NCBI GenBank assembly: GCA_011050235.1
Contig: DRGC01000011.1
Span: 1 to 53,755, forward strand
Origin: Phycisphaerae bacterium
GTDB lineage: Bacteria; Planctomycetota; Phycisphaerae; SM23-33
DNA length: 53,755 nucleotides
Direction: 5' to 3'
The notes under the pieces are model-generated. The model was not told the origin of the DNA, ran no database searches, and saw only the letters and a program-made list of their open reading frames with translations. Made by a program: the position numbers and the translations under genes. Positions 6,355 through 45,412 of the stretch are shown here, piece after piece. Positions within the stretch are counted from its first letter, which is position 1, and every line of letters begins with the position of its first letter.

Positions 6355-7557
6355 GCCATCGGCGCTGGTCGGCCCGTTCATCGCTCGCAGAAGCCACAGC
6401 GCCGCCAGGAGCGGCAGGGCGTACTTGTCCCATGCGATGTGGGCCTTCATCATCAGCGCCGCGTTGGCCAGCACGAGTGCGGATTCGATTCGAAAACGGC
6501 TGAATCGCACGCACGCCAGCAGGGCCAGGGCGTAGAAGCCCACCATCCGCACGCCGTCCCCGGCTGCGGCGCAGAAGGCCTTGTCCAGGTACCCCATCGT
6601 GGCGATCCCGTAGCTGGGTGGATTGCGCAACGGCGGAAAGAGCACGAACAGCCCCGCCAGCGCCGCCGCGACGATCAGCAGAGCGGGCCGAAACACAAGC
6701 TGCCCCCGCCGCTGGCGCCAAAACAGCAGCGTCTCCGGGATCACGTAATAGGCCCCCACGCACGCCAGGAAGTACAGGGCGTTATGCGGCAGCAGGCGCA
6801 ACACTCCGGCCGTCTCGACGGGCTGATGGGCTAGGGCCGCCGGCGGGGCCAACCCGCCCCAAAGCGCATACCATAGCCCCAGCGATGCGCACGCCAGCAA
6901 CGAGTAGGCCGCCATGACCGGCCGCGTCTTAGCGGTCGCCTCACCCAGCCGGGCCGGCTCGACAGCCCCGGCGGATGGGCCCCGTCGGCGCTGCCTGAGG
7001 AACTGGATGAGTTCGTAGGCCGCAATGGCCGCCGGAAAGGCCACCATGTACTGGCGAGAGGCGATCGCCAGCACAAAGGCGATCGCGCTGAGCGCACCCC
7101 AGCCCTTGCGATAGGCTGCGATCCCGCCAAACACCAGCAGCGCCGCCAGCATGTCGGTGTAGAGATGCGTGGCGCAGGCGAAGAAGTATGGAAAGATCAT
7201 CAGAGCCGCAATCGCCCGGGCGGCGCGGCTGGGAGCATCTCGCGCTGCCAGCACACAGCCAAGCACAATCAGCAGGCTCGCCACAAGGTTGACCGCGCGC
7301 CCGGTGCGGATGCCCCCGCCAAACGCCCGCTCGACACCCCCAAAAACCACAAACGGCAGCGGCGCGTTGAGTTCGTCGTAGCCGCGCAACTGCTCGATCG
7401 ACGGAACCCAACGCTGGCTGAACTGCAGGCTCGTCGGCCAGAAGTGGACCTCGTCCTTGCGCGCGTCAAAGTCCAGACCACCGGCGGCCACATAGATGGC
7501 GGCATAAACTGCCGCCACACACGCGATGAGTATCCACAGCCGATAACGCTTGCTCAT
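6343..7557 (-). CDS. Polytopic membrane protein, GT-C/ALG10-like
   Basis: A 404-residue protein with about ten hydrophobic segments. The start at 7557 (MSKRYRLWILIA) puts the first membrane segment directly at the N-terminus; the frame is open further upstream. The first extracytoplasmic loop carries acidic residues (ARKDEVHFWPT, RGYDELNAPLP), and a later loop reads CATHLYTDMLAALL. These patterns resemble polyprenyl-phosphate-sugar-dependent GT-C glycosyltransferases, in particular the ALG10 type (DE.H, Y.TD). The likely role is transfer of a sugar from a lipid carrier to an envelope glycan, but this is inference. It is convergent with the serpin gene and divergent from the tRNA-Asn locus. 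Confidence 0.6.
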   Translation of the reverse strand: MSKRYRLWILIACVAAVYAAIYVAAGGLDFDARKDEVHFWPTSLQFSQRWVPSIEQLRGYDELNAPLPFVVFGGVERAFGGGIRTGRAVNLVASLLIVLGCVLAARDAPSRAARAIAALMIFPYFFACATHLYTDMLAALLVFGGIAAYRKGWGALSAIAFVLAIASRQYMVAFPAAIAAYELIQFLRQRRRGPSAGAVEPARLGEATAKTRPVMAAYSLLACASLGLWYALWGGLAPPAALAHQPVETAGVLRLLPHNALYFLACVGAYYVIPETLLFWRQRRGQLVFRPALLIVAAALAGLFVLFPPLRNPPSYGIATMGYLDKAFCAAAGDGVRMVGFYALALLACVRFSRFRIESALVLANAALMMKAHIAWDKYALPLLAALWLLRAMNGPTSADGSGE

Positions 7558-7671
7558 ATGCCCAATCTCACCGTCGCCCCCGCTCAGCGGGAGCGACCTT
7601 CGAGTCAGCGACGCCGACAAGCGAACCACGGCCCGCCGTCGTCTTCTCGCCGCGGCAGCGCGATCAGGGCC

Positions 7672-7699
7672 TTGACTGATCGCCGCGATGCGATATCAT
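7672..7699 (+). promoter_or_regulatory. Sigma70-type promoter upstream of the tRNA-Asn array
   Basis: TTGACT (7672-7677) and TATCAT (7694-7699) are separated by 16 nt. They lie about 50 nt upstream of the first tRNA-derived unit and point toward it. The tRNA-Ala promoter near 25.7 kb uses the same 16-nt spacing. Confidence 0.55.
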
Positions 7700-7746
7700 A
7701 CGAAGCTCAAGGCGGCGGGCCAAGCTGTCCGACCCCCGCAAAAGTT

Positions 7747-7986
7747 CCCCCGATAGCTCAATGGGTAGAGCGAGTCCGCCGCGGGCGGATTAACCGCGAG
7801 TTCGTCGGGCTGTGACAACAGAATATTCCCCGATAGCTCAATTGGTAGAGCGAGTCCGCCGCGGGCGGATTAACCGCTAGGGCGTCGGTCCGTGACAACA
7901 GAATATTCCCCGATAGCTCAATTGGTAGAGCGAGTCCGCCGCGGGCGGATTAACCGCGAGTTCGTCGGGCTGTGACAACAGAATAT
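7747..7986 (+). repeat. Three 80-bp tandem tRNA-Asn-derived units carrying a palindrome
   Basis: CGATAGCTCA starts at 7751, 7831 and 7911, and again at 7991 in the intact tRNA: an exact 80-bp period. Each unit holds the tRNA-Asn 5' half (acceptor strand, D arm, GAGCGAG). A perfect inverted repeat, TCCGCCGCGGGCGGA (7775-7789, 7855-7869, 7935-7949), then replaces the CGGCTG that carries the first anticodon base. TTAACCGC follows, then about 35 nt unlike a T arm that ends ACAACAGAATATTC. Anticodon GTT and the T arm are lost, so the units are not functional tRNAs. Units 1 and 3 share GCGAGTTCGTCGGGC; unit 2 differs (GCTAGGGCGTCGGTC), so the copies have diverged. Confidence 0.85.
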
Positions 7987-8059
7987 TCCCCGATAGCTCA
8001 ATTGGTAGAGCGAGCGGCTGTTAACCGCTAGGTTCTAGGTTCAAGTCCTAGTCGGGGAG
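7987..8059 (+). tRNA. tRNA-Asn (GTT)
   Basis: A 73-nt cloverleaf. Acceptor TCCCCGA pairs with TCGGGGA, with discriminator G at 8059. The D arm is GCTC...GAGC. The anticodon stem AGCGG/CCGCT has loop CTGTTAA, giving anticodon GTT. The T arm is CTAGG/CCTAG with loop TTCAAGT. CCA is not encoded. It is the fourth member of the 80-bp periodic array and the only intact one. It probably shares the promoter at 7672-7699. Confidence 0.93.
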
Positions 8060-8080
8060 TTCTTTTCTTAGGGGTCAGCC

Positions 8081-8356
8081 ATGTATTGGGTGTATGTGCT
8101 TGTTAGCGAGAGCACGGGTAAACGCTACGTCGGCCAGACCGCCGATCTCAAGCGTCGCCTGGTTGAGCACAACACCCCTGAGCACAATCGACGCAAACAC
8201 ACGAGCCGAAACGCCGGCCCGTGGCGGCTGGTCCACCGGGAGAACTATCCCACCCGAGCCGAAGCTATGCGCCGAGAGAAGTGGCTGAAATCCGGTGCCG
8301 GCCGTCTGTGGCTGGATGAGACGATCGGTAGAGCAAGTCCGCCGCAGGCGGATTAA
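8081..8356 (+). CDS. Small GIY-YIG endonuclease-domain protein (between tRNA-Asn and a tRNA-Asn fragment)
   Basis: A 91-residue, single-domain GIY-YIG protein of the UPF0213/URI type. It opens MYWVYVLVSESTGKRYVGQT (the GIY and YIG strands as YVL and YVG). QTADLKRRLVEHN supplies the catalytic Arg helix, then WRLVHRENYPTRAEAMRREK contains the probable metal-binding Glu. AGGGG lies about 7 nt before the ATG, and the gene starts 21 nt after the tRNA-Asn. Its last codons (IGRASPPQAD) are read from a tRNA-Asn D-arm-like segment plus the palindrome TCCGCCGCAGGCGGA, and its stop TAA is the TTAA of the tRNA anticodon loop. The natural C-terminus has therefore been replaced or fused. It may be a homing-type nuclease of a small mobile unit, or simply a house-keeping paralogue; activity is unproven. 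Confidence 0.8.
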   Translation: MYWVYVLVSESTGKRYVGQTADLKRRLVEHNTPEHNRRKHTSRNAGPWRLVHRENYPTRAEAMRREKWLKSGAGRLWLDETIGRASPPQAD

Positions 8357-8413
8357 CCGCTAGGTTCTAGGCCGCAGATCCGCCTCCGGCGGGTCCAAGT
8401 CCTAGTCGGGGAG
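8324..8413 (+). pseudogene. tRNA-Asn fragment interrupted by two palindromic elements
   Basis: The segment keeps ATCGGTAGAGCAAG (D arm), TTAACCGCTAGGTTCTAGG (anticodon 3' side, variable loop, T stem) and TCCAAGTCCTAGTCGGGGAG (T loop, acceptor 3' strand). TCCGCCGCAGGCGGA (8338-8352) replaces the anticodon 5' side. A second palindrome-bearing insert (about 8372-8393, with CCGCC TCC GGCGG) splits the T loop. The 5' acceptor strand is missing, because coding sequence of the GIY-YIG ORF takes its place. Confidence 0.75.
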
Positions 8414-8650
8414 ATGTCGAATAGGCTGTGCTTTGGGCGGTCTTGTTGTGTTTCGGTGGGACTGGCCGGTTGGTGTGGGGTGTTCGAAAGATCGGAACGT
8501 TGTAGGGCGGGTGGGGTGGTTGGATGATCGTTGGGAGGTGTGGTTTGGGGAGTGGGGCGGAGCGATCACGCAATGCTTCAGTGCAGTTCAGGCTCGGGAA
8601 GGTGGTCCCCGTCTATGGGGATGGGGCCGGGGATCTGCGGAGTCCAGTCT
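8414..8650. other. Gene-free G-rich spacer holding repeat copy 1
   Basis: About 237 nt between the tRNA fragment and the end of the PEP-CTERM gene. It contains a 30-nt sequence (8462-8491) repeated exactly at 21801-21830. I see no convincing gene, RNA or terminator in the rest. Confidence 0.5.
8462..8491. repeat. 30-nt dispersed repeat, copy 1
   Basis: The segment begins CTGGCCGGTTGGTGTGGGGT and is identical over 30 nt to 21801-21830. Looser similarity continues for about 30 nt (a CGGAA, TTGYAGG and GGGG series). Confidence 0.7.
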
Positions 8651-9958
8651 CTAGCGGAACAATGGGGCTAGTTCCCTTCCCTTGGGGATCTTCGACCCCT
8701 TGGGGATCTTCGATCTGCGACGCAGCAGCGCCAGCCCGCCCAGGGCAAGCAGGGAAAGCGTGGCGGGTTCTGGAACCGCGCCCATCGGAGCCTCGAAGCC
8801 AAAATTAGTCTTCAGGATGGCCAGGTCCGTCGCGTCAACGATGTCATCGCCGTTGGCGTTGCCACCAGCCCAGCCGATGCCGGTGTTGCCGAAGTATTGC
8901 TTCATGATGGCCAGGTCCGTGGTGTTGACCATCAGATCGCCGTTGAAGTCGGGGACGATTCGTATCGCATCGGCCCCCTGAAACTCGGTGCCATCCATCA
9001 TCGCGCCGGTCAGGGCCAGTTCGGTCATCCCCGGCTCGATTCCCAGCGCCTGCATCTCGAAGTGCATGACCATGTCGAGCAGCAAATCGCCATCCACGTC
9101 CTCGAACGAGACGTGCCAGCTGCCGTTCGGCTTTACTCTGGGCCCAACGCCGTTCAGGAGAAGCGTGTCCAGGTCGACCTCGGTGAGGTCCAGGCCTTCA
9201 CTACCGTAGACGACCACAGGCAGGAGGCCCTTGGACTTGAGGTTGACGCTGTTGGGGTCGCTGCCCGGCTTGATGTCCACCACCAGCGTGGCGAGTTCTG
9301 GCACGAGGAAGCTTGTCTGAACGTCTCCGGCCGGGCCTGGCTCCAGGATTCCTGAGATGGCGAAGTCCAGCGAGATCGTCGTGCCGCTGCTGGCAACGAG
9401 CTGGGCGATCTGCCACGTGTCGCCCGAAGCGCCGCCGCTCAGGGCGAACGTGCCGCTCAGCTGGTCGCCGAACGTCGTCTCGACGCCCGGGGCCAGCGGC
9501 GGCGGCGAGTCGCTTGGCTCGGCGCTAGGCCCGACGTTGCGCGTCTCGAAGGGCGCTGTCACCGCGATCAGCTCAGCCAGCGTATTGAGAAAGTGTGTGT
9601 CGATGGCCGTGGCGAACAGACTGCTGTCGGCTGTCGGCGTGTAGACACCCAGGATCGGATCGTCGTGCTGGTGCAGGCTGCCGGAGAACCCCGAGTGGCC
9701 GAAGAACACACCATCGAAGCCCATCGGGTCGTGGCCCGCGTTGCCCGTCGTGTTGACGACGTAGAGCGTCGTCGAGTAGAGACTCTCTGCGCCAGTGCCG
9801 ACGGGCGTGGGGTTGGTGACGAATACGTCGTAGATCGCCGTCTGGCTGAGCAGCGTGTCGGCGTGACTGCCGGCGGCGGTGACAAGGAGCATCGCCAGTG
9901 ACCATAGAGCGATCCTGCGGCACTTTCCTGCTAGGCGTGTTGAAGTCAATTGATACAT
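8651..9958 (-). CDS. Secreted PEP-CTERM protein with dockerin-like repeats
   Basis: A 435-residue protein. The start at 9958 was chosen for GGGAGG 5-6 nt upstream and for the signal peptide it gives (RRIALWSLAMLLVTAAGSHA). The middle is a beta-rich region of unknown family. Two EF-hand-like dockerin units follow: DFNGDLMVNTTDLAIMKQYF and GNANGDDIVDATDLAILKTN. The C-terminus is a PEP-CTERM sorting signal (VPEPATLSLLALGGLALLRRR), recognised by exosortase-type systems. It then continues with an unusual tail made of a direct duplication, SKIPKGSKIPKG. The same dockerin style ends the giant protein encoded just upstream on the same strand, suggesting a shared surface assembly (inference). Confidence 0.78.
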   Translation of the reverse strand: MYQLTSTRLAGKCRRIALWSLAMLLVTAAGSHADTLLSQTAIYDVFVTNPTPVGTGAESLYSTTLYVVNTTGNAGHDPMGFDGVFFGHSGFSGSLHQHDDPILGVYTPTADSSLFATAIDTHFLNTLAELIAVTAPFETRNVGPSAEPSDSPPPLAPGVETTFGDQLSGTFALSGGASGDTWQIAQLVASSGTTISLDFAISGILEPGPAGDVQTSFLVPELATLVVDIKPGSDPNSVNLKSKGLLPVVVYGSEGLDLTEVDLDTLLLNGVGPRVKPNGSWHVSFEDVDGDLLLDMVMHFEMQALGIEPGMTELALTGAMMDGTEFQGADAIRIVPDFNGDLMVNTTDLAIMKQYFGNTGIGWAGGNANGDDIVDATDLAILKTNFGFEAPMGAVPEPATLSLLALGGLALLRRRSKIPKGSKIPKGRELAPLFR

Positions 9959-10077: not shown

Positions 10078-13000
10078 TCAGACACTAACCTTCATCAGAG
10101 CATCGATCTGGAGGATCGAGAACTCCTCTTCAAGATCGTCATCTCGGCGTTGGCGTCTCGTTGACCGGAGCGTCGGCGCCGTCGTAGCGATCGCGCCCTG
10201 GGCTGGCAGTGGCGCCGTCTTCTTACGGCCATTGTCACCACCCGTTGAAAGCTGCAACGCGCTGACGGCAACGGGCGGTCGGGGCTGCGACTGATGGGGC
10301 CGCTTGCCTGCCCGCTTGCGGCGGCGCCGGTTCCGCTGTGTCGTCGATTCGTAGACACCCATCGGTTCGTCAGCCGGTTCGGCTGCCAGGGAGGCCACCG
10401 GAGCTGAACTCGACAGCGTGTCGATTACGTCTGGCTGCGGTGCAAGCATCAGTGGGGCCGACGTCGCGATCAGTGTGGCGGCAACGTCACTTGCCAGTGC
10501 CGTATTGACTTCGGCCGGCGCCTGCTGCGTGGTGTCGGCCGTGACCTGCACGGGTGCTGCCGGCGTCTGCAAAGCCGCGGGCGGCGCCATCGAGGGCGCG
10601 GCCGCACTGGCGTTGAATCCGAAGTACTTGGCCAGGATCGACAGGTCCGTTACGTCGACCAGGCCGCTGCCGTTGAGGTCGCCGCCGGACCAGCCGACGC
10701 CCTGAGAGGCGAAGTTGGTCTTGAGGATCGCCAGGTCGGTCCCATCAACCAGGCCGTCGAGGTTGATGTCGCCGTATTCGGTGTTGAGGATGTCGTGGAT
10801 CAGCACGTCCATGTCGTCTTCGTCGGCGTCACCGTCGCCGTCGAGGTCGAAGGCAGCGTTTCCCTGGTGGGCGTAGAGCAGATCGATGTCCAAGCTGTCG
10901 ACCAGCCCGTCACCGTTGAAGTCACCCGCGACGGCTGGGGCCAGGTTGGCGAAGTCTCGGCCGTCAACGACCTCACTTGGGCCCAGGGAAATCGCGTAGT
11001 TCACAGGCCCCGACAGATTCGACATGTCGCCGCCCAGGCCGACAACGCTACCGGTTACGCCGCCGAGGGCAAAGCTGCCCAGAACCGCGCCCGTCGACGG
11101 GTCGATGCGATAAACCAAACTGCCGATGCCCGAACCGATCGCCAGCAACTCGCCGCCCACATAGGCCAACCCGCCGTCCAGCGCGCCCAGGCCGGTGGCG
11201 AAGGTGCTGAGCACCGAACCATCCGTCGGGTCAATGGCGATGATCTCGCCCGCGGCGTTGCTGTCAAACAGCACACCCAGATCAGCCGCGCCGGTCAGGC
11301 CGCCCGTCACCGCAGCCGATATCGTCAGCGTCCGGACGAAACTATCACTGGCGGGATCCCACACAGCTACTTGGTCGGACATGTATTGGATGTAGAGCAG
11401 CCCGTCGAGGTAGGCGAGCCCCTTGATGACATAGATAGCCCCAAACGTCAGCGGATCGGAATCGATCACCGCCCCGGTATCCAGGTCCAGCTCCCACAGC
11501 GTGGGCGTGAACCAGTCGTTGGCATCGACGTAGAACAGGCTATCCGGCCCGACGGCCAGGCCCTGATAGCCTACGCTGACTGGATTGGCCGGAGCGGCAA
11601 AGCTGTTGAGCGTGCTGCCGTCAGTCGGGTCGATCTCGTGGATCGTCATCGCCCCGCCAACCACCTCAGCGGCAAAGGCCCGCTCCTCCACGCCAATCGG
11701 GGCCGTCTGCTGCCACCCGGCGGGCACGACCTGACGAACCTTGTAGTCATCCTGCACCAGCCCGGCGAAACGGTAGCGCCCGCGCTCGGTGGCCGGATCG
11801 ATGATGCCGTCGCCGTTGAGGTCTTCGCTTGCGGTCGTGGCCGTGGCAATCACGCCGCTGGCCGGATTGACCAACTCCACCGTCCACCCGTTGACGCCAA
11901 CCTCGACGCCATCCCGCACGCCATCACCGTCCAGATCACCGAAGACCTGCCCGGCGACCTCCGCGTCGGCCGGCTCGTTGCCGAAGTCCAGGCCCTCGTA
12001 TGCCTGGCTGGCTTCAACAGTCAGCAGATATGTCTCGCTCACAGGAAAAGTCTGCGACCAACCGGCCTGGGCGACCTGGCGTACCTCATAGTCGCCCGGC
12101 AGGAGCGCATCAACGACATAGATGCCGCTCTCAGTCGCAGGATCGATCGAACCGCTGCCGTCCAGATCGACATCCATGGTCACTGCCGTCGCAACAACGC
12201 CCGACGTGGCGACATCAACCACCTCGATCGTCCAGCCGTTAATCCCGAACTCGCCAGCATCCTGTACGCCACTGCTGTTGAGATCGTTGAATATCTGGCC
12301 GAAGATCGTCCCGAGTTCGCCCACCCCAAAGTCCAAGCCCGACAGTGTTTCGCTCACCGCCAGCGTGGCCGTATGTATGCCGCCGGCAGGCGCTGTGACC
12401 GTCCAGCCCTCGGCCGTCACAACCCGGATATCAACCGTACCGACTCGCACGTAATCAAGCACATATAGGCCCGACTCCGTTTCGGGGTCGATTGTGCCGC
12501 TCTCGTCAAGGTCGATGTCCATGGTGACGGTCGAGGCGATGACGCGCCCGTCGATCGGATCGACGGCCTCGACGGTCCAACCGTTCAGTCCAACTTCGCC
12601 GGCGTCCCGAGCGAGATTGGCGTTGACGTCGTTGAAGAGTTGGCCGGTGACCACGCCGGCATCGGTATTGGCGAAGTCCATGCCGCTAAGCGACTGACCT
12701 ACAGCCAGCGAGAAGGTCAAGGACCTGGGGCCGTATGTGGCGCCGAGGTAGACTAGCGGAGTGGTGATCTTGCCGTATTGCGGGCTGTACTCCGTGCCGT
12801 CCGACCCTATCAGGCCGAAAACGCGGTTGGCGTCGCCGGTGCGGCCAAACACTTGAATGGTCCGGGCGACCGGATCGTCGATGACCTCGATGGTGATGTC
12901 GTCGAAGTCCTTGTCCGCGGTGGCCCATTGCTTCTGACTGCCCATTCTCATGTCTTCGACGACAAACCAATAGCGATTGGGATCGGTCCCGGGCGTATAG

Positions 13001-16000
13001 GCGGGGAAATCTATGCCGTGCAGTGAGCCGCTCGGCAGCGCCTGGAAGACGTCATCGTTGACCTTCCACAATCCGGGCGTGGGGTCGACCTCGAGGAAGG
13101 ACCCTTCGAGCCAGTAGGGCTCGTAGCTGAATATGTCGACAACGAAGTTTGTCCACCCAGCGTATATGTGCAGCTTCATGTCGAACGGCTCGCGGTATGT
13201 CTGCACCCACCCGTCCTGTTGCATTTCGCGAAGCTGGTAATCTTCGGCGGGCAGATCGGTGAAGGCGTACAGGCCGGCTTCGGTGATCGGATCGATCATC
13301 CCGTCGGTGTTGAGGTCCGCACTGGCCGTGACGGTTGTTGCGATGACAGCCCCCGTGCTGGGATCGACCAGTTCGATCGTCCAGCCGTCAAGTCCGGGCT
13401 CGGTCGGTCCGCGCAGGCCGTCGCCGTCGACATCGTGCCACTTCTGGCCGGCGACGCCGTTGGCCGGGCGGTTGCCGAAGTCGGCGCCCGTCTCGTGCTG
13501 GGCTACGGCAACGACAAACGTATAGCTTACGCCAGCGGGAACGGTCTGGGTCCATCCGTTCTGCCGGACCTGTCGGACGAGATACTCGCCCGGCTGCAGG
13601 TCCTCGAAGCGATACGTGCCGCGTTCACTCACGGGGTCGATCGAGCCGTTACCGTCGACGTCCTGGTCAGCTGTGGCGGCCGTGGCGACCACATCCCCGG
13701 TGGCGGTGTTGACCAGTTCGACGGTCCAGCCGTTCACGCCAGTTTCGGCAGGGCCGTGGAGCCCGTCGCCATCGGAATCGCTGAATATCTGGCCCGCTAT
13801 CGACGGCAGCGACACGACGCCAAACGAGGCATCCCCGTATGTCTGGCCGCTGAGCGCCGCAAAGGTGTGTCCGGGCGCCGCCGGATAGGTCTGCGACCAT
13901 AACTCCGGCATGACCAGGCGGGCCTCATAGTTGCCCGGCTTGATGCCGGCAAAGGCGTATCGGCCCGACTCCGTGTGTGGATCAATCGAGCCGCTTTCGT
14001 CCAGGTCCACGTCGGCGGTGATTGCCGTGGCCGCGATTCCGCCGGTGTCGACGTCGACTAGCTTGACGGTCCAGCCGTTCAGGCCGTTCTCAGCGACGCC
14101 CTGAAGGCCGTCGTAGTCGGCGTCGTCGAAGACCTGGCCGGCGGCCGACGCCCGCTCAAACAGGCCGAAGTCGACCCCGCTGACCGTTGCAGCCGCAACG
14201 GTGACAAACTGTGGGTAGCCGGTGTTGACGCGCTGGAACACGCTGACGGCGTCGTCGTACTCTCCGGCTGTATACACATACAGGCCATCGGGGCTCACGG
14301 ACACGTCGCTAATGCCATACAGCCCGTCGACGCCGGCCACGCCGTCCTGATGGATCTCCTGCAGAGCCAGCAGGCCGGTGTCGAGATCCCGCTCGAAGAC
14401 GACAAGTGCATTGTCATCATGGCCGCCAGCCAGCACGTGCCGGCCGTCCGGGCTTATGGCCAGCGCTCGCGTTGCTGCCAGGCCGTCAATCCCCCCCTGC
14501 CCGTCGACGTAGCTCGTCACGTACGTCAGCAGACCGGTGACCGGGTCCCTGTCGAACACGGACACCGCGCTGTCGCCGGGATAGGCTGTATAGACCTGCA
14601 AGCCATCCGGGCTGACGAGCAGGTCGCCGACGCCGGCCAACCCGTCGACGCCGTCCTGATTGTCGTAGAGCGTCTGGACGTGTGTCAGGCGGCCCGTGGC
14701 TGCGTCCCGGCTGAACACGACTAGAGAGCCCGGGCTGCTGCATGCAACATAGATGTTTAGCCCGTCAGCACTCACCGTCACCGCCCCCGGACCGGACAGG
14801 CCGGGAGCGTCAACGTCGTCGACCAGTGCCTGGTGCTGACTCAGAAGACCCGTAGTCGCACTGCGGACGAATACCAGCAAGCTGTCGTTCGCCTCACCGC
14901 TGGTGGTGACGTAGACGTAATTGCCGTCGGGGCTGTCCACCGCTGCCCTGGGGATGCCGTGGTCCAGCACGAAGTCCGACTCGGACCGGATGGCCTGGGC
15001 CCTCGTTACATAGCCGGTATCGCGGGAGCGGTCGTAGACAGCCAGCAGGCCCTCATAGTCGCCCCCGACGACAAGCAGCGACCCGCCGTCTGAGTTCATG
15101 GCCAGCCACACTGTCTCCTCGACGGCGTTGTAGTTGTTGCCCTCAACGACCTGTACGACACTCAGTTCGCCCGTCAGGCTGTCTCTCTGGAGAACAGTCA
15201 TGGCGTCGTCGTACCGTGTGCCGACATACAGGTGATTGCCGTCCTGCGAGACGGTCAGGACGCGCGCGCCGTCCAGGTAATCCGCGCCGCCGACACCGTC
15301 TCGCAGCATCTGACTGAAGACCAGCTCGCCCGTTCCGCCGTGGGGCATGCTCTGTAGCCAATCCGGGGCGGCAACCGGCTGCACTCGGTAATCTCCGGCC
15401 GCGACGCTGGCGAAGCTGTACACTCCCATTTCCGTCTGCGGATCGATCGTGCCATTGGAATCCAAATCGATACTGGCGGTAACCTGCGTGTCGACCACCG
15501 TGCCGCTGGCCACATCCACCAACTCCACGGTCCAGCCGTTGACGCCAACATCGCCGATGTCCTGGACGCCGTTGTCGTTGATGTCATCGAACACTTGACC
15601 TTCTATGTCGCCGTAGGCGATGTCGGCAAAGTCGACTCCGGCCACATCCTCGCCGATCGTTAGCGAAACGAGGTGCGAGCCGATTGGCGCAACCTGCGTC
15701 CAGCCGGCCGGAAGAACGTGTCGCACTTCGTAGTCGCCTGGAATCAGGTCGTCGAACGAATACAAGCCGCTCTCGGTGTCGGCGGCGATGACGCCGTTGC
15801 CGTCCAGGTCGATGCTGGCTGTTGTTGTGGCGCCCACTACAAGGCCGGTGGTCGGGTCGACAAGCTCAACCGTCCAACCGTCCTGGCCGAGATCGCCGGC
15901 ATCGTGCACGCCGTCGAGGTGACGGTCAGCGAACACCTGTCCGGAAATGTCGGCGAGCATGAAAACACCGAAGTCCAGGTCCTCGACCGTCTGGCCGTTA

Positions 16001-19000
16001 AGTGACAGGGCGTAGTTGCCCTCGGGGGTACTCTGTGCCCAGGCGATCGGTAGGACAACACGGACTTCATAATCGCCCGACAGGATTTCATTGAGGGTAA
16101 ACCATCCCGCTTCCGTGGCCGGGTTAATGACGCCGTCACCGTCGAGATCCTCACTAACGGTCACGGCGGCAGCGACGACAATGCCGTAAAGGTCGATCAG
16201 TTCGACGACCCAGCTGTTGGCGCCGTTCTCGCCGGCATTAAGGACGCCGTCGTTGTTGACATCCACGAACACTTGGCCGCTCAATGCGCTAACCCGCGCA
16301 TTGCCGAAATCGGCATCGCTGACAATCTCGCCGGCGGCCAACGTCTGTTCGATGGGCCCGACCGTATGGACGTGTTCAAAGACATCGATAACCGACGTGT
16401 CCGCCCAGGCTGAGGTGTAGAGGAATCGCCCGTCTTGACTGAGCGTCAGCGCCCAGGTGCCGACGAGCGTATCAGCTTGGTCAGCCAGCGTCAGTTCGCC
16501 GGTCGCTGCATCCCGGTGATACAACAGAAGGGAATTGCCGCTCCCGGCCGCATAGACGAACTGCCCGTCAGGGCTGATGGTCACGGCGTAAACCGCGTCG
16601 GCGTATACAGACCCCACTAGCGACAGTTCACCGGTGAGTTCGTCGCGGGCAAAGATCGTCACGGCGTCCTCAGCGGGTGAGACCGTGTAGACGTGTCGCC
16701 CGTCCACACTGCAGGCCAGATCCGTTGGTTTGCCCATCTGCGGCGCGTCGGTGCTGGCGTAGAGGGTCTGGAGATGAGTCAGGCGCCCGGTGACCGCATC
16801 GCGTGTGAATACGTAAAGGGCCTCATCACCGTCCACCAAGCGGGCACTGACGAAAGCGTGAGCCCCATTCGGGGAGATACGAATGACGTATGGCGCATTG
16901 AAATCATCGAGGCCGTTCGTGTCGTGTTCCACAACCTGTTCGACAGACAGCAAGCCGGACGCCGGATCCCGACGGAACACGGTTACCGCGCCGCGGAATC
17001 GTTCATCCGTAACATAGATGAATGCCCCGTCGGGGCTGATCGCCTGGCCTCGGGGGTAGCTCAGAGATGCGCCGTTCTCACCATCACGAAGGGTCTGCAA
17101 GAACGTTAGGTCGCCAGTGGCCGGATCTCGTTGGAACACGTAGAACGCATCAACTTCAGTCAGATAGACAAACAAACCATCCGGACTGACGATGACATTT
17201 GCGGCAAGGTTGAAGGCGTCGGGGCCGGCTGACCGGAGTTCCTGATCGAACGTCAACTGACCGGTGTAAGGATTGCGCTGGAAGATAGCCAACGCGTCCC
17301 CGAAGTTGTCGGTCACGTAAAGCTGTCGGCCATCGGGGGACAAGGCCGAGCTGGCGGCGCCGTTCAGCCCGCCCGTGCCGTCAGGCACTTGCTGGATCGG
17401 CGTTAGCTGTGCTGCCTCCTGGGAGGGAGCCGTTTGAGTCCAGCCCTGCCGAGCCACCTCGTGGATTTCGTAATCGCCCGGCAGGAGATGATCGAAGGTG
17501 TAGAGGCCGGCCTCGGTTTCGGGATCGATCGAGCCGTCGCCGTTGAGGTCCATGCTGGTCGTAACAGCCGTGGCTATCAGGCCGCCGGTGTCCGTGTCGG
17601 TCAGTTCGATCACCCACCCGTCCATGCCCGGCTCGCCGGCGTCCCGCTGACCATCGGCGTCGAGGTCTTCGAACTCTTGGCCGCTAATGGAAGAAGGATC
17701 GGTAACGACCACGCCGAAGTTCAAGTCCGTCACGCCGCTATCGCCGGAGAAAAGGGTGATATTGTGAGTGCCATCGGCGGGCAAAGTGAGCGTTACTTGC
17801 GAGTGGACAATCAGGCGGGTCTCATAACTCCCCGGCCGAAGACCGGCAAAAACATACAGACCGTTTTCGCTGGCGGGGTCGACAGAACCGTTGCCGTCCA
17901 GGTCGACCGGGCCGCTTCGAGTCAGGCCAAGGATCGCGCCCGTCTCGCTGTCGATCAGCTCAACCAACAGGCCGCCAACACCTTCCTCACCGACATCCCG
18001 CACTCCGTCGGCATTGTCATCATGGAACACTTGCCCGGACACGTCGACAGAAAGGAACGAACCGAAGTCTTGCCCGCTGATGACATCTCCGGCGGCGAGG
18101 TAGACCTGGTGGTACTGGCCATGCGGGAAGTCAAACACCGTCAGGCCATAGTAGCCCGTGACGAAGACGTGCTGATTGTCCGGGCTGATGGCGAGGGAAT
18201 TGGGTTGCCATATGTTGTCCATTACTTGGGACAGGGCCAGCTCGCCCGTGGCAGCATCTCGATCGAATATGGCCAGTGAGCCATCGTCGTAGCTGACGAC
18301 AAGCACATGTTGATCATCCGAGGTAACGGAGACAGCATAGGGCGTCTCCAGGCCGTCTATCCAGTCTGACCTATCCTGTAGGATCTGCCCGCGACTCAGT
18401 TCGCCAGTTATCTCGTCCCGCAGGAAGAGGGCAATGCTGTTGCCTCCGGTGGCAACAACGTAGATGTGTCGTCCATCGCCGCTGACGGCCAAGTCTGACG
18501 GGTTGTAAAGTCCATTCGGAGTTGCACCGAAAAGTTTCTGAATGTACGTCACGATGCCTGTGGCCGGATCGCGACTGAAGGTTGCCAGAATTCCGTTGGG
18601 TCTGTTGTAAGAATAGGCGTCGGAGATGACGTACACATACTGTCCGTCGGGCGAGACGGTCAGGCCATGGGGTCCCCAAAGGGCGTCATCGTTCTCGGCG
18701 CCATTGAAGACGGCCTGTACCTGCGACAGGAGCCCAGTGGTGGGGTCCTGTGTGAATATGGCCAGCGAGTCGTCCCAACTGGCGATAAGCACATCACGAC
18801 CATCAGGGCTGAGGGCTATATCCCTAGGCGTGCCCAGGCCGACCACGCCGTCTACGCCTTCCGTTAACGTCTGCAGAAGCGACAATTCGCCCGTGGCCAC
18901 ATCTCTGCGGTACACGAGTAATGAGTAGTCCCCCGACGAACTACGCGCGTATACGTATAGGCCGTTCGGGTTGACCGCCAAGAAGCGTGCGACGTGCGGG

Positions 19001-21312
19001 AGGACCTGCGCTTCGGTCATCTCTCCGGAGACGGGATCCCGGCTGAGCACGGTCAGCCCGTCACTCGACGCGACGTAGACATGCCGCCCATCAGGCGAAA
19101 CGGCCAACTCCTCCGGCCGTCTGAGGTTGTCAATTCCATTGACGCCATCGGCAAGGATCTGCTCGATCGTCAGATCGGCCGGCACGCCGACCGGCATGGA
19201 TGCCTGCCAGCCGGTGGGAAGGACCTGACGTACTTGGTATTCGCGCGGCGCGAGGCCGGCGAAACTGTAAAGCCCGGCCTCGGTGGCTGGGTCGATCACC
19301 CCGTCGCCGTCGAGGTCGCTGGCGGCCGAGACGCCCGTCGCCACGACGCGCCCCAGCACGACGTCGAACAGTTCAACCGTCCGGCCATCGACGCCCAGTT
19401 CTGCGACGTCGTGAACGCCGTCCGCATTCAGATCGTCGAACGCCTGACCATGGATTTCTCCCAGAACAGCGACGAACAGGCCCAAGTCAAGGTCCGTCTG
19501 GTCCGCCCCACCGGACACCAGTGACAGATGTGCTCCCCCCGCCGGTGATGTCTGCGCGACACCGTCGGGCAGGACCAAGTGCAGCTCGTACGCGCCCGGC
19601 CAAATGTTCTGGAAAGAATATAGACCCGCTTCGGTCATCGGGTCGATCACGCCATCGCCGTCCAGATCGCTTTGATCGGCTATCATGCTCTCGACAGCGA
19701 AGCCGGTGGTCGTATCGATCAACTGCACCTGCCAACCATCGACGCCCGTTTCTGCGGGATCTCGCAGACCGTTGTTGTTGGCGTCGTTGAACACCTGCCC
19801 GGCGATCTCGCCGATCGTTTGCACATTGCCGAAGCTGGCATTCGCCGCGCCGCCTGGCCCGCCCATCAGGAAGGTGTGGTAATCGTTGAAGACGTGCTCG
19901 AAAACGCCGATGGAATCCTTGTTGTGGCTGACAACATACAGGAATCTGCTGTCAGCGCTGCTTGTCATATCATCTATCGCTCCCAGTTTCACGCCAGAGG
20001 CGGCACGATATGTCGTCACGTAGGTCAGCGCGCCGGTAGTTACGTTGCGGCGGAAGCTGACAACCCGTCCTGGGTTATACTCCGTGCCGACGAAGACATG
20101 CTGGCCGTCCGGGCTGACCTCGACCGAGATGGCATTGTACATGTCCTCGATGCCATCCTCGCCGTCCTCATACTTATAGTCAAAGGTCAGCTCACCTGTC
20201 GCTGGATCACGCTGGAACAGCGCGACGCTGTCCGTCCCGGAAAGATAGACATGCTTGCCGTCTTCGCTGATGGCGACGTCTCTGGCGTTCAAGCCGTCCA
20301 CACCGGCTACGCCTTGGGCCAGGGTCTGCACATACGTCAAGTTTCCGGTCGCGATGTCCCTGGCGAATACAATCAAGGTGGGGGAGTACGATGCATATTG
20401 ATCCGATGCGAGCACATACACGCTCGTGGCGTCCGGGCTCATCGCCAGATAGTCGGGGTTGAATAGGTCCGCCAGACCCTCTTGACCTCTGGCGATCACT
20501 TGCTGACTGGTCAGCCCGCCCGACCCATCGTGCGAGTAAACAGTAATGCGGTCGTTATAACCTGTCACGTAAACGTTGGCGCCATCAGGGCTGATGAGAA
20601 TATCGTTGCCGTCGCTGCCGGCCAAACTGTCAACAAATGTAAGCCGACCGGTTTCCGCGTCTCGGTCGAAGACGACTATCCTGGAAGTGCTGCCAAAGAA
20701 CAGATGGTTGCCGGCTTCGTCCATTGTCATGCCAGTCGGATAGGACAGCATGTTGATATCTTCGTGCGATATGCTCTGCTCGAACGATAATTCACCGGTC
20801 TGTCCATCACGGCTGAAAACCGCGATCGCCTGGTCGTACCAGGACAACACATACATGTGACGACCATCCGGGGAATTGATCACGCGTGTTGGATAGTCCA
20901 ACCCGTCGACGTCGTCCACGCCATCCAACAGCACCTGTGTGAGGGCCAGCTGGCCTGTGGGAATTGATGGGGACGTTTGCGTCCAGCCAGCCTGGTCCAT
21001 CTGGCGGACCTGGTATTCGCCTATAGTCAGGCCTTCGAAAGCGTACCAGCCGGCCTCGGTGACAGGGTCTATCACGCCATCGCCATTGCGATCACTGTCG
21101 GCCGTACTCATCGACTGGAGCCCCGCGCCTGTCGTCACGTCGACCAGCTCTACCGTCCAGCCGTTCAAACCGGGCTCGCCGGGGTCCTGAAAACCGTTGC
21201 CGTTGAGGTCTTCCCAGACTTGCCCTTCGATCGTGCCGTTTAGCAGCAAACGTGGTTCGAGGGCCTCAAAGGCCGGTCGATTTGGACAATCCCGTCTGTC
21301 TTCGCCTTTCAT
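10078..21312 (-). CDS. Giant LEPR-XLL surface protein: SdrD B-like repeats, beta-propellers, dockerin-like end
   Basis: A 3744-residue protein. The start at 21312 has GGGAG about 7 nt upstream; residues 15-26 hold the LEPR-XLL motif (FEALEPRLLLNG) typical of planctomycete giant surface proteins. I count 14 SdrD B-like units of the form GQVFxDxNxDGxxDxGExGxxGWTVELVD, each followed by a DLDGDGVIDPxTEAG Ca-binding-like loop. Their starts run at roughly 21.2, 19.8, 19.5, 18.0, 17.7, 16.3, 15.9, 15.6, 14.1, 13.8, 13.5, 12.7, 12.3 and 12.0 kb. Four lactonase/YVTN-type propellers (LxVSPDGxxVYV, VFxRDxATGxLT) lie at about 20.9-19.9, 19.2-18.1, 17.4-16.4 and 15.3-14.2 kb. A smaller YncE-like propeller lies at 11.7-11.0 kb. 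Dockerin-like EF-hands (10.9-10.6 kb) and an Ala/Pro then basic tail end the protein. Likely an adhesive or matrix protein; ligand unknown. Confidence 0.9.
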   Translation of the reverse strand: MKGEDRRDCPNRPAFEALEPRLLLNGTIEGQVWEDLNGNGFQDPGEPGLNGWTVELVDVTTGAGLQSMSTADSDRNGDGVIDPVTEAGWYAFEGLTIGEYQVRQMDQAGWTQTSPSIPTGQLALTQVLLDGVDDVDGLDYPTRVINSPDGRHMYVLSWYDQAIAVFSRDGQTGELSFEQSISHEDINMLSYPTGMTMDEAGNHLFFGSTSRIVVFDRDAETGRLTFVDSLAGSDGNDILISPDGANVYVTGYNDRITVYSHDGSGGLTSQQVIARGQEGLADLFNPDYLAMSPDATSVYVLASDQYASYSPTLIVFARDIATGNLTYVQTLAQGVAGVDGLNARDVAISEDGKHVYLSGTDSVALFQRDPATGELTFDYKYEDGEDGIEDMYNAISVEVSPDGQHVFVGTEYNPGRVVSFRRNVTTGALTYVTTYRAASGVKLGAIDDMTSSADSRFLYVVSHNKDSIGVFEHVFNDYHTFLMGGPGGAANASFGNVQTIGEIAGQVFNDANNNGLRDPAETGVDGWQVQLIDTTTGFAVESMIADQSDLDGDGVIDPMTEAGLYSFQNIWPGAYELHLVLPDGVAQTSPAGGAHLSLVSGGADQTDLDLGLFVAVLGEIHGQAFDDLNADGVHDVAELGVDGRTVELFDVVLGRVVATGVSAASDLDGDGVIDPATEAGLYSFAGLAPREYQVRQVLPTGWQASMPVGVPADLTIEQILADGVNGIDNLRRPEELAVSPDGRHVYVASSDGLTVLSRDPVSGEMTEAQVLPHVARFLAVNPNGLYVYARSSSGDYSLLVYRRDVATGELSLLQTLTEGVDGVVGLGTPRDIALSPDGRDVLIASWDDSLAIFTQDPTTGLLSQVQAVFNGAENDDALWGPHGLTVSPDGQYVYVISDAYSYNRPNGILATFSRDPATGIVTYIQKLFGATPNGLYNPSDLAVSGDGRHIYVVATGGNSIALFLRDEITGELSRGQILQDRSDWIDGLETPYAVSVTSDDQHVLVVSYDDGSLAIFDRDAATGELALSQVMDNIWQPNSLAISPDNQHVFVTGYYGLTVFDFPHGQYHQVYLAAGDVISGQDFGSFLSVDVSGQVFHDDNADGVRDVGEEGVGGLLVELIDSETGAILGLTRSGPVDLDGNGSVDPASENGLYVFAGLRPGSYETRLIVHSQVTLTLPADGTHNITLFSGDSGVTDLNFGVVVTDPSSISGQEFEDLDADGQRDAGEPGMDGWVIELTDTDTGGLIATAVTTSMDLNGDGSIDPETEAGLYTFDHLLPGDYEIHEVARQGWTQTAPSQEAAQLTPIQQVPDGTGGLNGAASSALSPDGRQLYVTDNFGDALAIFQRNPYTGQLTFDQELRSAGPDAFNLAANVIVSPDGLFVYLTEVDAFYVFQRDPATGDLTFLQTLRDGENGASLSYPRGQAISPDGAFIYVTDERFRGAVTVFRRDPASGLLSVEQVVEHDTNGLDDFNAPYVIRISPNGAHAFVSARLVDGDEALYVFTRDAVTGRLTHLQTLYASTDAPQMGKPTDLACSVDGRHVYTVSPAEDAVTIFARDELTGELSLVGSVYADAVYAVTISPDGQFVYAAGSGNSLLLYHRDAATGELTLADQADTLVGTWALTLSQDGRFLYTSAWADTSVIDVFEHVHTVGPIEQTLAAGEIVSDADFGNARVSALSGQVFVDVNNDGVLNAGENGANSWVVELIDLYGIVVAAAVTVSEDLDGDGVINPATEAGWFTLNEILSGDYEVRVVLPIAWAQSTPEGNYALSLNGQTVEDLDFGVFMLADISGQVFADRHLDGVHDAGDLGQDGWTVELVDPTTGLVVGATTTASIDLDGNGVIAADTESGLYSFDDLIPGDYEVRHVLPAGWTQVAPIGSHLVSLTIGEDVAGVDFADIAYGDIEGQVFDDINDNGVQDIGDVGVNGWTVELVDVASGTVVDTQVTASIDLDSNGTIDPQTEMGVYSFASVAAGDYRVQPVAAPDWLQSMPHGGTGELVFSQMLRDGVGGADYLDGARVLTVSQDGNHLYVGTRYDDAMTVLQRDSLTGELSVVQVVEGNNYNAVEETVWLAMNSDGGSLLVVGGDYEGLLAVYDRSRDTGYVTRAQAIRSESDFVLDHGIPRAAVDSPDGNYVYVTTSGEANDSLLVFVRSATTGLLSQHQALVDDVDAPGLSGPGAVTVSADGLNIYVACSSPGSLVVFSRDAATGRLTHVQTLYDNQDGVDGLAGVGDLLVSPDGLQVYTAYPGDSAVSVFDRDPVTGLLTYVTSYVDGQGGIDGLAATRALAISPDGRHVLAGGHDDNALVVFERDLDTGLLALQEIHQDGVAGVDGLYGISDVSVSPDGLYVYTAGEYDDAVSVFQRVNTGYPQFVTVAAATVSGVDFGLFERASAAGQVFDDADYDGLQGVAENGLNGWTVKLVDVDTGGIAATAITADVDLDESGSIDPHTESGRYAFAGIKPGNYEARLVMPELWSQTYPAAPGHTFAALSGQTYGDASFGVVSLPSIAGQIFSDSDGDGLHGPAETGVNGWTVELVNTATGDVVATAATADQDVDGNGSIDPVSERGTYRFEDLQPGEYLVRQVRQNGWTQTVPAGVSYTFVVAVAQHETGADFGNRPANGVAGQKWHDVDGDGLRGPTEPGLDGWTIELVDPSTGAVIATTVTASADLNTDGMIDPITEAGLYAFTDLPAEDYQLREMQQDGWVQTYREPFDMKLHIYAGWTNFVVDIFSYEPYWLEGSFLEVDPTPGLWKVNDDVFQALPSGSLHGIDFPAYTPGTDPNRYWFVVEDMRMGSQKQWATADKDFDDITIEVIDDPVARTIQVFGRTGDANRVFGLIGSDGTEYSPQYGKITTPLVYLGATYGPRSLTFSLAVGQSLSGMDFANTDAGVVTGQLFNDVNANLARDAGEVGLNGWTVEAVDPIDGRVIASTVTMDIDLDESGTIDPETESGLYVLDYVRVGTVDIRVVTAEGWTVTAPAGGIHTATLAVSETLSGLDFGVGELGTIFGQIFNDLNSSGVQDAGEFGINGWTIEVVDVATSGVVATAVTMDVDLDGSGSIDPATESGIYVVDALLPGDYEVRQVAQAGWSQTFPVSETYLLTVEASQAYEGLDFGNEPADAEVAGQVFGDLDGDGVRDGVEVGVNGWTVELVNPASGVIATATTASEDLNGDGIIDPATERGRYRFAGLVQDDYKVRQVVPAGWQQTAPIGVEERAFAAEVVGGAMTIHEIDPTDGSTLNSFAAPANPVSVGYQGLAVGPDSLFYVDANDWFTPTLWELDLDTGAVIDSDPLTFGAIYVIKGLAYLDGLLYIQYMSDQVAVWDPASDSFVRTLTISAAVTGGLTGAADLGVLFDSNAAGEIIAIDPTDGSVLSTFATGLGALDGGLAYVGGELLAIGSGIGSLVYRIDPSTGAVLGSFALGGVTGSVVGLGGDMSNLSGPVNYAISLGPSEVVDGRDFANLAPAVAGDFNGDGLVDSLDIDLLYAHQGNAAFDLDGDGDADEDDMDVLIHDILNTEYGDINLDGLVDGTDLAILKTNFASQGVGWSGGDLNGSGLVDVTDLSILAKYFGFNASAAAPSMAPPAALQTPAAPVQVTADTTQQAPAEVNTALASDVAATLIATSAPLMLAPQPDVIDTLSSSAPVASLAAEPADEPMGVYESTTQRNRRRRKRAGKRPHQSQPRPPVAVSALQLSTGGDNGRKKTAPLPAQGAIATTAPTLRSTRRQRRDDDLEEEFSILQIDALMKVSV

Positions 21313-21800
21313 GACAATCTCCCTATAGCGATGCCCCGTATTAGACGCATGGCCTCCCACGAGAAGTCGGTGTTTTTTTCGAAGAATCCCCAGCCGGCGA
21401 TCTGGTGGCGGCCCCGTGTCCGTCCATATCGCACCCGTTCAATGGCCACATCCCCGTGATTGACAATCCCATCATCTCCTCTACCAAAGGCCCGGGCCCG
21501 CATCCCACTGTCGCAGGAGCCGCGCACTGCCAACGGCCTCCGTCAGCTTGCCTCTCGTCGCTTCCGCCCTCCGGCTGCCTCAATCTGTACAGCCCCATCA
21601 TAGAAGGACGTAACCGCCGAGCAGTACGCAAATTGTACCATGGCTACCCTTTACTGCAAGACATTCCCAGCAGCATTATCCGGGGCAACGCGACCCGCCG
21701 GAGCTACGATGAAACGACCAGCGGCGGCCGTCTCTGGCCCCTACTTCCCGGCGACGAATCTGTCCAACACCGACAGGTCGATCAATCTTCGCAGACCTGC

Positions 21801-25217: not shown

Positions 25218-25580
25218 TTATGGCAACAGGGAGGCGAAGGTGCGGGGGCGTCGGCGGCCGAGTGTTTTGAGTTTCACCATGTCGCCAGCGATCAGGGCCT
25301 GTTTCTTGTGGTGCGTCCATCGTTTGACTTGGCGCTCACGTTCGACAGCGTCGCCTCGGGATGGGAATCGCTGGTGATAGACAAGACGGACGGGTCGGCG
25401 TGCAGCGGTGTAGGCGGCGGCTTTTCCCGTCTGGTGCGCGCGAAGGCGAAGCTGAAAGTCAGCCGTCGAGCCAACATAGAAGCTTCCGTCGGCGCACTGG
25501 AGAATATAGGCGAAATGGGCCTTTTCGGTGGCCAAGAGATTGCCCTTCGACTCGCTGCGCTCGCTCAGGACATTCTCCAT
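25218..25580 (-). CDS. Second small GIY-YIG endonuclease-domain protein, downstream of tRNA-Ala
   Basis: A 120-residue ORF. The GIY-YIG core is HFAYILQCADGSFYVGSTADF (YIL and YVG strands), then LRLRAHQTGKAAAYT with the catalytic Arg, and PSRGDAVERERQVKRW with the conserved Glu. The first 13 residues (ENVLSERSESKG) are coded by a dispersed element (25543-25572). The only ATG lies directly after the palindrome 25582-25601, whose AGAAGG could act as ribosome site. A TTG start nearer the domain (LLATEKAHF) is an alternative. The gene begins 30 nt after tRNA-Ala in the same orientation, mirroring the tRNA-Asn/GIY-YIG arrangement at 8 kb. The C-terminus (KTLGRRRPRTFASLLP) is basic and unlike the first copy. 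Confidence 0.75.
   Translation of the reverse strand: MENVLSERSESKGNLLATEKAHFAYILQCADGSFYVGSTADFQLRLRAHQTGKAAAYTAARRPVRLVYHQRFPSRGDAVERERQVKRWTHHKKQALIAGDMVKLKTLGRRRPRTFASLLP
25543..25572. repeat. Expanded CTTCGAC..GCTCAGGACA element
   Basis: CCCTTCGACTCGCTGCGCTC followed by GCTCAGGACA. It is the same family as the copies in ligA and the left-edge gene, with an inner TCGCTGCGCTCGC hairpin-like expansion. On the minus strand it encodes LSERSESKG of the GIY-YIG ORF. Confidence 0.6.
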
Positions 25581-25581
25581 A

Positions 25582-25601
25582 GCTCCGCCTTCTGGCGGAG
25601 C
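25582..25601. repeat. GCTCCGCC/GGCGGAGC palindrome between tRNA-Ala and GIY-YIG ORF
   Basis: GCTCCGCCTTCTGGCGGAGC has an 8-bp perfect stem and a 4-nt loop. It lies between the tRNA 3' end and the start codon of the GIY-YIG ORF. Confidence 0.7.
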
Positions 25602-25610
25602 GACGGAGAA

Positions 25611-25683
25611 TGGAGCCGAGGGGAATCGAACCCATGACCTGCTGATTGCGAACCAGCCGCTCTCCCAACTGAGCTACGGCCCC
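25611..25683 (-). tRNA. tRNA-Ala (CGC)
   Basis: 73 nt on the minus strand, starting GGGGCCGTAGCTCAGTTGG. The anticodon arm is GCTGG/TCAGC with loop TTCGCAA (anticodon CGC). The T loop is GTTCGATTC, the acceptor end CGGCTCC and the discriminator A. CCA is not encoded. A GIY-YIG ORF follows 30 nt downstream. Confidence 0.93.
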
Positions 25684-25696
25684 ATGGGTAGGCACG

Positions 25697-44536: not shown

Positions 44537-45412
44537 TTATCTCTTGGAGAATTGGAATCTCTTGCGAGCGCCAGGCTGGCCGTACTTCTTGCGTTCGACC
44601 TGTCGAGCGTCGCGGGTGAGGAGGCCTAGGTGGCGGAAGGTGCTCTCGAGTTCCGGCATCGCCTTGGATAAAGCCCGCGCAAGACCCAGAGAGACTGCGT
44701 CGGCCTGACCGGTGGTCCCGCCGCCGCCGACGTTGACCCACATATCCCAGGACGCCATCATCTCGGCCGCCTCGAGCGGGGCGACGATGGCGTTCTGATC
44801 GCGCAGGGCGGGGAAGTAGGCGGCCGGCTCGCGCTTGTTGATAAGAATCTTGCCGCTGCCCGGGCGAATCCGCACGCGGGCGACGGCGCGTTTCCGCCGG
44901 CCTGTTCCCCAGATGTAGTGCACGCCGTCAGGAAGCGCCGGGGCTGTGCGCTTCGGTGCGGCGGGCTTTTCCTCTTTAGGGGCCTCAGCCACAGGGGCGT
45001 CGGCTTCGGGGGCTTCAGCCTTGGGCTCTTCCTTTTTGGGGGCTTCAGCCTTGGGCTTTTCCTTTTTAGGGGCTTCAGCCTTGGGCTTTTCCTTTTTAGG
45101 GGCTTCAGCCTTGGGCTTTTCCTTTTTAGGGGCTTCAGCCTTGGGCTTTTCCTTTTTAGGGGCTTCAGCCTCGGGCTCTTCCTTTTTAGGGGCTTCAGCC
45201 TCGGGCTTTTCCTTTTTAGGGGCTTCAGCCTTGGGCTTTTCCTCTTTAGGGGCTTCAGCCTTGGGCTTCTCCTTTTTAGGGGCTTCAGCCTTGGGCTTTT
45301 CCTTTTTAGGGGCTTCAGCCTTGGGCTTCTCCTTTTTGGGGGCTTCAGCCTCGGGGGCGTCGTCGCCGGCGGGCTGGGGGTCGGCTTGCTGTGTGTCGTC
45401 GTCCTTAGCCAT
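44537..45412 (-). CDS. rpsI: 30S ribosomal protein S9 with long acidic/basic repeat extension
   Basis: A 291-residue protein; ordinary S9 is about 130. The C-terminal 135 residues are normal S9: IWGTGRRKRAVARVRIRPGS, GGGTTGQADAVSLGLARAL and the end GARKRFQFSKR that reaches the P site. Residues 1-150 are a low-complexity extension. It holds 11 near-identical decapeptides AEAPKKEKPK (residues about 22-131, 45020-45349), then two degenerate units (AEAPEADAPV, AEAPKEEKPA). Each unit is a nearly exact 30-bp DNA repeat, so copy number could change by slippage. The gene lies 14 nt after rplM, the conserved L13-S9 operon. Confidence 0.95.
   Translation of the reverse strand: MAKDDDTQQADPQPAGDDAPEAEAPKKEKPKAEAPKKEKPKAEAPKKEKPKAEAPKEEKPKAEAPKKEKPEAEAPKKEEPEAEAPKKEKPKAEAPKKEKPKAEAPKKEKPKAEAPKKEKPKAEAPKKEEPKAEAPEADAPVAEAPKEEKPAAPKRTAPALPDGVHYIWGTGRRKRAVARVRIRPGSGKILINKREPAAYFPALRDQNAIVAPLEAAEMMASWDMWVNVGGGGTTGQADAVSLGLARALSKAMPELESTFRHLGLLTRDARQVERKKYGQPGARKRFQFSKR
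45020..45349. repeat. 11-copy 30-bp tandem repeat in rpsI
   Basis: On the plus strand the core reads CTTTTTAGGGGCTTCAGCCT plus TGGGCTTTTC, with few substitutions per copy. It encodes the AEAPKKEKPK decapeptide. Confidence 0.9.

Follow-up and report, generated by a model that had tools for sequence, protein, structure and literature searches.

A tRNA-Asn remnant array in a Phycisphaerae genome as the apparent left edge of a tiny, seemingly undescribed element with a GIY-YIG nuclease gene

In a Phycisphaerae bacterium (assembly GCA_011050235.1), an intact tRNA-Asn gene is preceded by a tandem array of three truncated copies of itself, each bearing a short palindrome in place of the sequence that holds the first anticodon base, which raises the question of what kind of genetic object such an array belongs to. 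The window, i.e. the whole stretch of DNA analysed here, is the entire contig DRGC01000011.1 (53,755 nucleotides) of a 4.0-Mb genome whose assembly is 95% complete. A first, sequence-only reading had reported the exact 80-bp period of three units ahead of the tRNA, the palindrome, and a promoter pointing into the array, and Tandem Repeats Finder (7748–8014: period 80, 3.3 copies, 94% matches, zero indels), ARAGORN, Rfam and a motif scan bear out this description. The features of this left part are as follows.

7672–7699, plus strand: sigma-70-like promoter, TTGACT-16-TATCAT (motif scan)
7748–7827, plus strand: left remnant unit 1, tRNA-Asn 5' half, hairpin, TTAACCGC and spacer
7775–7789, no strand: hairpin TCCGCCGCGGGCGGA of unit 1, replacing CGGCTG
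7828–7907, plus strand: left remnant unit 2, tRNA-Asn 5' half, hairpin, TTAACCGC and spacer
7855–7869, no strand: hairpin TCCGCCGCGGGCGGA of unit 2, replacing CGGCTG
7908–7987, plus strand: left remnant unit 3, tRNA-Asn 5' half, hairpin, TTAACCGC and spacer
7935–7949, no strand: hairpin TCCGCCGCGGGCGGA of unit 3, replacing CGGCTG
7987–8059, plus strand: intact tRNA-Asn(GUU) (ARAGORN; Rfam RF00005, E=4.9e-15)

Each unit, exactly 80 bp long, consists of tRNA-Asn bases 1 to 26–28, the palindrome TCCGCCGCGGGCGGA, TTAACCGC and a spacer, and the tRNA segment lost is CGGCTG, the last base of which is the first anticodon base. The gene at 7987–8059 is the sole full-length tRNA-Asn detected across the 95% complete assembly; ARAGORN finds no insert in it, and Rfam shows no intron within 7000–9000. 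Promoter-like sites number two in 1 kb where 0.2 would be expected, and the one at 7672–7699 is probably the original tRNA-Asn promoter, now reading through the array, its position being judged from the empty site of a relative (see below).

The array is apparently the left edge of a larger, though still tiny, element that continues on the other side of the intact tRNA with these features.

8081–8356, plus strand: single-domain GIY-YIG nuclease ORF, 91 aa (PF01541, E=3.7e-14)
about 8324–8413, plus strand: right remnant of tRNA-Asn, D-loop to 3' end (alignment to tRNA-Asn)
8338–8352, no strand: hairpin TCCGCCGCAGGCGGA in the anticodon arm of the right remnant (palindrome search)
8379–8393, no strand: second hairpin TCCGCCTCCGGCGGG, in the T-arm of the right remnant (palindrome search)

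The ORF starts 21 bases past the intact tRNA-Asn, and its 3' end, last codons and stop included, overlaps the right remnant together with the first of the two hairpins there, the stop codon lying within TTAA just 3' of TCCGCCGCAGGCGGA. Between the left and right remnants of the window there is no recombinase ORF, just the tRNA and the GIY-YIG ORF. The element comprises one or more left remnants (5' half), an intact tRNA and a nuclease ORF, and in many cases the 3' half of the tRNA follows as a right remnant. The sequence-only reading, which had seen one side of this element, came close in calling the units palindrome-invaded tRNA copies or an integration landing array; what it overlooked was that a nuclease ORF and a right remnant lie beyond the tRNA, that the layout recurs at further tRNAs and that the hairpin tracks the nuclease lineage.

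Elsewhere in the window, a second GIY-YIG ORF (25248–25684, minus strand) lies just downstream of a same-strand tRNA-Ala(CGC), with the palindrome GCTCCGCCAGAAGGCGGAGC between them. Other features of the window are a tandem array at 44963–45355, whose periods are 30 bp and 90 bp and whose 30-bp unit is present about 11.6 times, and an ORF of 3760 aa (10078–21360, minus strand) with repeated domains and many GQVFDDxNxDGVxDxGE motifs.

The window ORF belongs to the GIY-YIG nuclease superfamily: its PF01541 score exceeds the gathering score, the conserved catalytic Tyr, Arg and Glu are present, and Y5, G18, R26, H30 and E66 are invariant across 15 relatives. Its nearest PDB matches, by sequence and by fold, are UPF0213 proteins (1zg2, 1ywl) and then Slx1, with I-TevI far lower; the fold model has a mean pLDDT of 81 and the Foldseek TM-scores are moderate (0.5–0.6). 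PHROG homing-endonuclease matches to this nuclease are weak. The UPF0213/SLX1-like structure-specific nucleases are not known as mobile elements, whereas the proteins described here, whose nuclease activity is predicted from sequence, are encoded in a putative mobile element.

Relatives of the window ORF occur in 28 of 60 related genomes, and of the 298 genomes of the class, 143 give a match to a profile built from 15 of these ORFs. A same-strand tRNA lies within 260 bp in 59 of 125 related GIY-YIG loci, compared with an opposite-strand tRNA in a single one, so that the nuclease gene adjoins its presumed target gene, in the manner of homing-type genes, in those 59. In more than 30 loci an intact tRNA (Asn, Pro, Val, Ile or His) stands beside hairpin-bearing remnants, and alignment of the tRNAs back to the flanks showed that remnants on one or both sides of the ORF loci derive from the same tRNA. 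Left remnants mostly start at the 5' end and reach the T-loop, frequently terminating in GGTTC or GGTTCA, and right remnants extend from the D-loop through the 3' end. Two layouts recur, the order being left remnant(s), intact tRNA, ORF and right remnant in the window, L018, L034, L072, L081, L098, L129 and L149, and left remnant, ORF and intact tRNA in L020, L023, L052, L054, L060, L080 and L086. The exact Asn-type pattern was found in 15 named contigs, mostly from planctomycetes and two from Chloroflexi (the only two Chloroflexi loci, both from this exact-pattern search), and in one IMG/VR contig. Some loci are not independent, as L161 and L169 apparently lie on the contigs of L098 and L092, respectively, and L174 shares its ORF with L103. 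Arrays similar to that of the window occur in independent assemblies at L034, L072, L129, L168 and L173, which makes it unlikely, on this comparison of sequences, that the window array is an assembly artefact.

The genome of the window has a further locus of this kind (L149, G000:C25:7200-9800), at tRNA-Val(GAC), with left and right remnants carrying GCCCGACGGGC and GCCCAACGGGC; its nuclease match is divided over two frames and the gene may be broken. At L103, L159, L165 and L174, ARAGORN takes the hairpin loop of remnants for an anticodon and labels them as tRNA-Cys(gca), tRNA-Arg(cct) or tRNA-Thr(agt); calls of this kind in annotations are probably spurious.

Considering the remnants themselves, nearly every one that covers the anticodon lacks the native arm and has a short GC-rich palindrome in its place. 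At Pro, Val and Ile tRNAs the remnants have lost precisely the 17-nt anticodon arm, with its 5-bp stem and 7-nt loop, and a hairpin of 10–15 nt stands there instead; in Asn elements six bases (CGGCTG) are exchanged, or ten in one family. The His locus L045 retains a native anticodon arm and has most of its T-arm exchanged for CCCGTACGGG; a second hairpin in or near the T-arm is found in several right remnants (window, L062, L072, L098, L167, L172 and L173), and at L070 a hairpin lies in the D-loop of remnants. A script that collects replaced segments returned 59 sites from 37 loci; 35 different inserts are represented, and almost all are hairpins, although the sound count is somewhat lower, as the rows for L022, L067, L070 and one of L045 are weak or partial. 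Compared with shuffles, the insert palindromes typically score 0.0001–0.03, most being reached by fewer than 3% of shuffles and many by fewer than 0.5%. Within any one element, the hairpin on the left side matches that on the right.

The hairpins also follow the nuclease. In a tree of 131 ORFs over 72 columns, with many forks unresolved, the main Asn clade, two Pro clades, a second Asn clade and an Ile pair are all separate. Hairpin stem classes, assigned by eye from stem sequence, need 7 changes for 8 states on this tree, which is the minimum and entails no homoplasy, compared with 7 changes for tRNA identity (minimum 5) and 3 for layout (minimum 1). L072 illustrates the point, being a Pro element within a Val-type nuclease clade that carries the Val-type hairpin. 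Hairpin class therefore follows nuclease lineage better than tRNA identity does, a congruence that is strong but not final because the classes were set by eye and the forks are weakly supported.

A comparison at the tRNA-Pro locus of the G008 genus points to the state before insertion. In the congener G028 an upstream gene is followed, after a gap of about 100 bp, by an uninterrupted tRNA-Pro(CGG), whereas in G008, which shares the upstream region, the gap is several hundred bp and holds a left remnant and the ORF. The upstream flank and tRNA lie on one contig in G028, and in G032 the tRNA is present with a portion of the flank; the comparison is made at gene level on the upstream side, the downstream flank being on another contig. 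As judged from sequence, the G028 tRNA-Pro is an empty target site. Among the Asn-element genomes checked, the linked tRNA-Asn is the sole full-length copy in nearly all, including two single-contig genomes (in G273 there is a second copy, 84% identical), and the element therefore sits on an essential gene. Two tRNA-Asn 3' fragments in another genome (L224 and L225, G087:C1 near 1200723 and 2304057) were considered as transposed copies of the element and rejected, as they have neither nuclease ORF nor hairpin; they may be att-like remnants of other integrated elements.

Given this anatomy, its recurrence, the co-orientation of tRNA and ORF, the empty site and the agreement of hairpin and nuclease, we consider it probable that these loci are small mobile elements in which a GIY-YIG nuclease homes on tRNA genes, accompanied by a working copy of the tRNA and by displaced copies disarmed by hairpins. 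Cutting, homing and immunity, as well as the reason for using a hairpin rather than another change, are what we infer. By analogy with the phage enzyme SegB, the nuclease would cut an uninterrupted tRNA gene, and repair of the break from the element-bearing copy would copy the element in. The working tRNA carried by the element would keep the host alive, so that loss of the element would risk an essential tRNA, and the hairpin on the displaced halves may either remove the cut site, giving protection, or mark the element ends for the nuclease. The window array would then be a tandem amplification of the left remnant, and the 26-bp tRNA 5' repeats that left remnant and intact tRNA have in common would have been the sites of repeated insertion or the partners in unequal exchange. 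L171, ordered intact tRNA, ORF, remnant, ORF, remnant, shows the right-hand counterpart that repeated insertion predicts.

Several observations count against this model of a homing element. About half of the related ORFs (125 loci) have no intact tRNA nearby, and in the Ala, Ser, Met and most Leu clades a tRNA lies 50–200 bp away with no hairpin remnants; these clades may work in a different mode. Furthermore, the element's own intact tRNA would be expected to be a target as well, and no sequence feature accounts for its being spared.

A more specific and tentative version, which we would not expect to prove correct, is that of hairpin exchange, by which the element would move or protect itself. 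An SLX1-like nuclease would cut at the base of a stem-loop formed by a tRNA gene in cruciform or single-stranded state, and the element's cognate hairpin would take the place of the arm, nuclease and hairpin co-evolving in a selfish capture of the host's only copy of an essential tRNA. Compared with free-standing homing endonuclease elements, of which the locus would be a variant, this exchange is the part that could be categorically new. Snap-back repair copying the neighbouring tRNA was rejected as a source of the hairpins, whose arms do not match the adjacent tRNA.

The serious rival is an independent mobile palindrome, for which dead tRNA copies would be neutral landing pads and the GIY-YIG ORF a mere neighbour. 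Such a palindrome does exist in some genomes, where TCCGCCnnnGGCGGA is a dispersed repeat (178 copies compared with 0 for the control in G093, and 106 compared with 1 in G005), it also occurs outside a tRNA context in the genome of the window, and hairpins are found in the T-arms and, at L070, the D-loop of remnants as well. Neutral landing is nevertheless hard to square with hairpins at one position in almost every anticodon-covering remnant, with matching left and right hairpins, with a hairpin class that fits the nuclease tree without homoplasy, or with an arm that is substituted and not simply interrupted; in addition, the shortness of many hairpins (TCCCnnnGGGA, GCCCnnnGGGC) prevents their recognition as this dispersed repeat, and we regard this explanation as rather unlikely. 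In G093, G005, G190 and G087 the dispersed TCCGCCnnnGGCGGA has a variable 3-nt loop, the control being the reversed sequence, and several copies in the genome of the window share the flank GGGCAA-hairpin-CCCACCCTACG. A nuclease match is present in 15 of the 20 genomes with at least 14 TCCGCCnnnGGCGGA copies, compared with about half overall, which is suggestive only and is not counted as evidence.

An RNA-level role, in which the hairpin would keep the cloverleaf junction of a truncated tRNA and the transcript would be processed, or serve as a leader or decoy in expressing the nuclease and the tRNA downstream, might be read from the exact arm boundaries in Pro, Val and Ile elements and from the position of the array between promoter and intact tRNA. 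It is distinctly improbable, as left remnants have neither a T-arm nor a 3' acceptor strand, and in right remnants the 5' acceptor strand is missing, so that no tRNA forms; Asn elements exchange only 6 nt, and, under DNA energy parameters, shuffled sequences fold as well as the units do (z -1.5 and -0.6). The processed decoy RNA of the sequence-only reading accordingly finds no positive support, a cloverleaf being impossible for the units, and a decoy tRNA was rejected for remnants that miss half of one. Tandem duplication of tRNA genes is common, and the locus could be pictured as ordinary duplication and decay with chance palindromes, or as an assembly artefact, yet 35 distinct replaced segments, nearly all hairpins and each unlikely by shuffling, at one tRNA position in many independent assemblies from two phyla contradict such an origin, which we hold to be very improbable indeed.

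If the homing-element model is true, a widespread class of very small bacterial selfish elements has been overlooked because its parts look like tRNA annotation noise, and the class would account for odd extra tRNAs called by predictors in these genomes. It would live on single-copy essential tRNA genes with its own tRNA as insurance, and would pair a structure-specific-type nuclease with a matching DNA hairpin, making discrimination between self and target directly testable. The literature searched, which includes few subscription journals, contains no description of a GIY-YIG ORF accompanied by hairpin-substituted tRNA remnants and a rescue tRNA, and within it the earlier remark that no system of this layout had been described holds.

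Among known systems, the nearest precedent is SegB, a free-standing GIY-YIG homing endonuclease of T-even phages, which is encoded beside tRNA genes, cuts within them and causes tandem segmental amplification through recombination between short homologies (PMC13096335). The window element resembles it in nuclease family, in a gene adjoining tRNA genes, in tandem arrays and, by analogy, in predicted cutting; unlike SegB, it resides in bacterial chromosomes, encodes a 90-aa single-domain enzyme closest to UPF0213/SLX1, and has, as constant components, a rescue tRNA and tRNA remnants with hairpin substitutions. Group I introns in bacterial tRNA genes also have a homing endonuclease gene inside a tRNA gene and spread by homing, whereas here no intron is needed, as the element brings a separate intact tRNA and the function of the interrupted copy is not regained. 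Integrative elements with tyrosine recombinases target tRNA genes, reconstitute the tRNA at their insertion site and leave pieces of tRNA behind; the element described here, in contrast, has no recombinase ORF, spans a few hundred bases and has a remnant arm exchanged for a hairpin. Lastly, Rickettsia palindromic elements, REP/RAYT repeats and the GC hairpins of fungal mitochondria are short mobile palindromes, often located in RNA loops, and REP palindromes are linked to a Y1 HUH transposase, whereas the linked ORF here is a GIY-YIG nuclease, and the hairpin, tied to the lineage of that nuclease and to tRNA remnants, replaces an arm.
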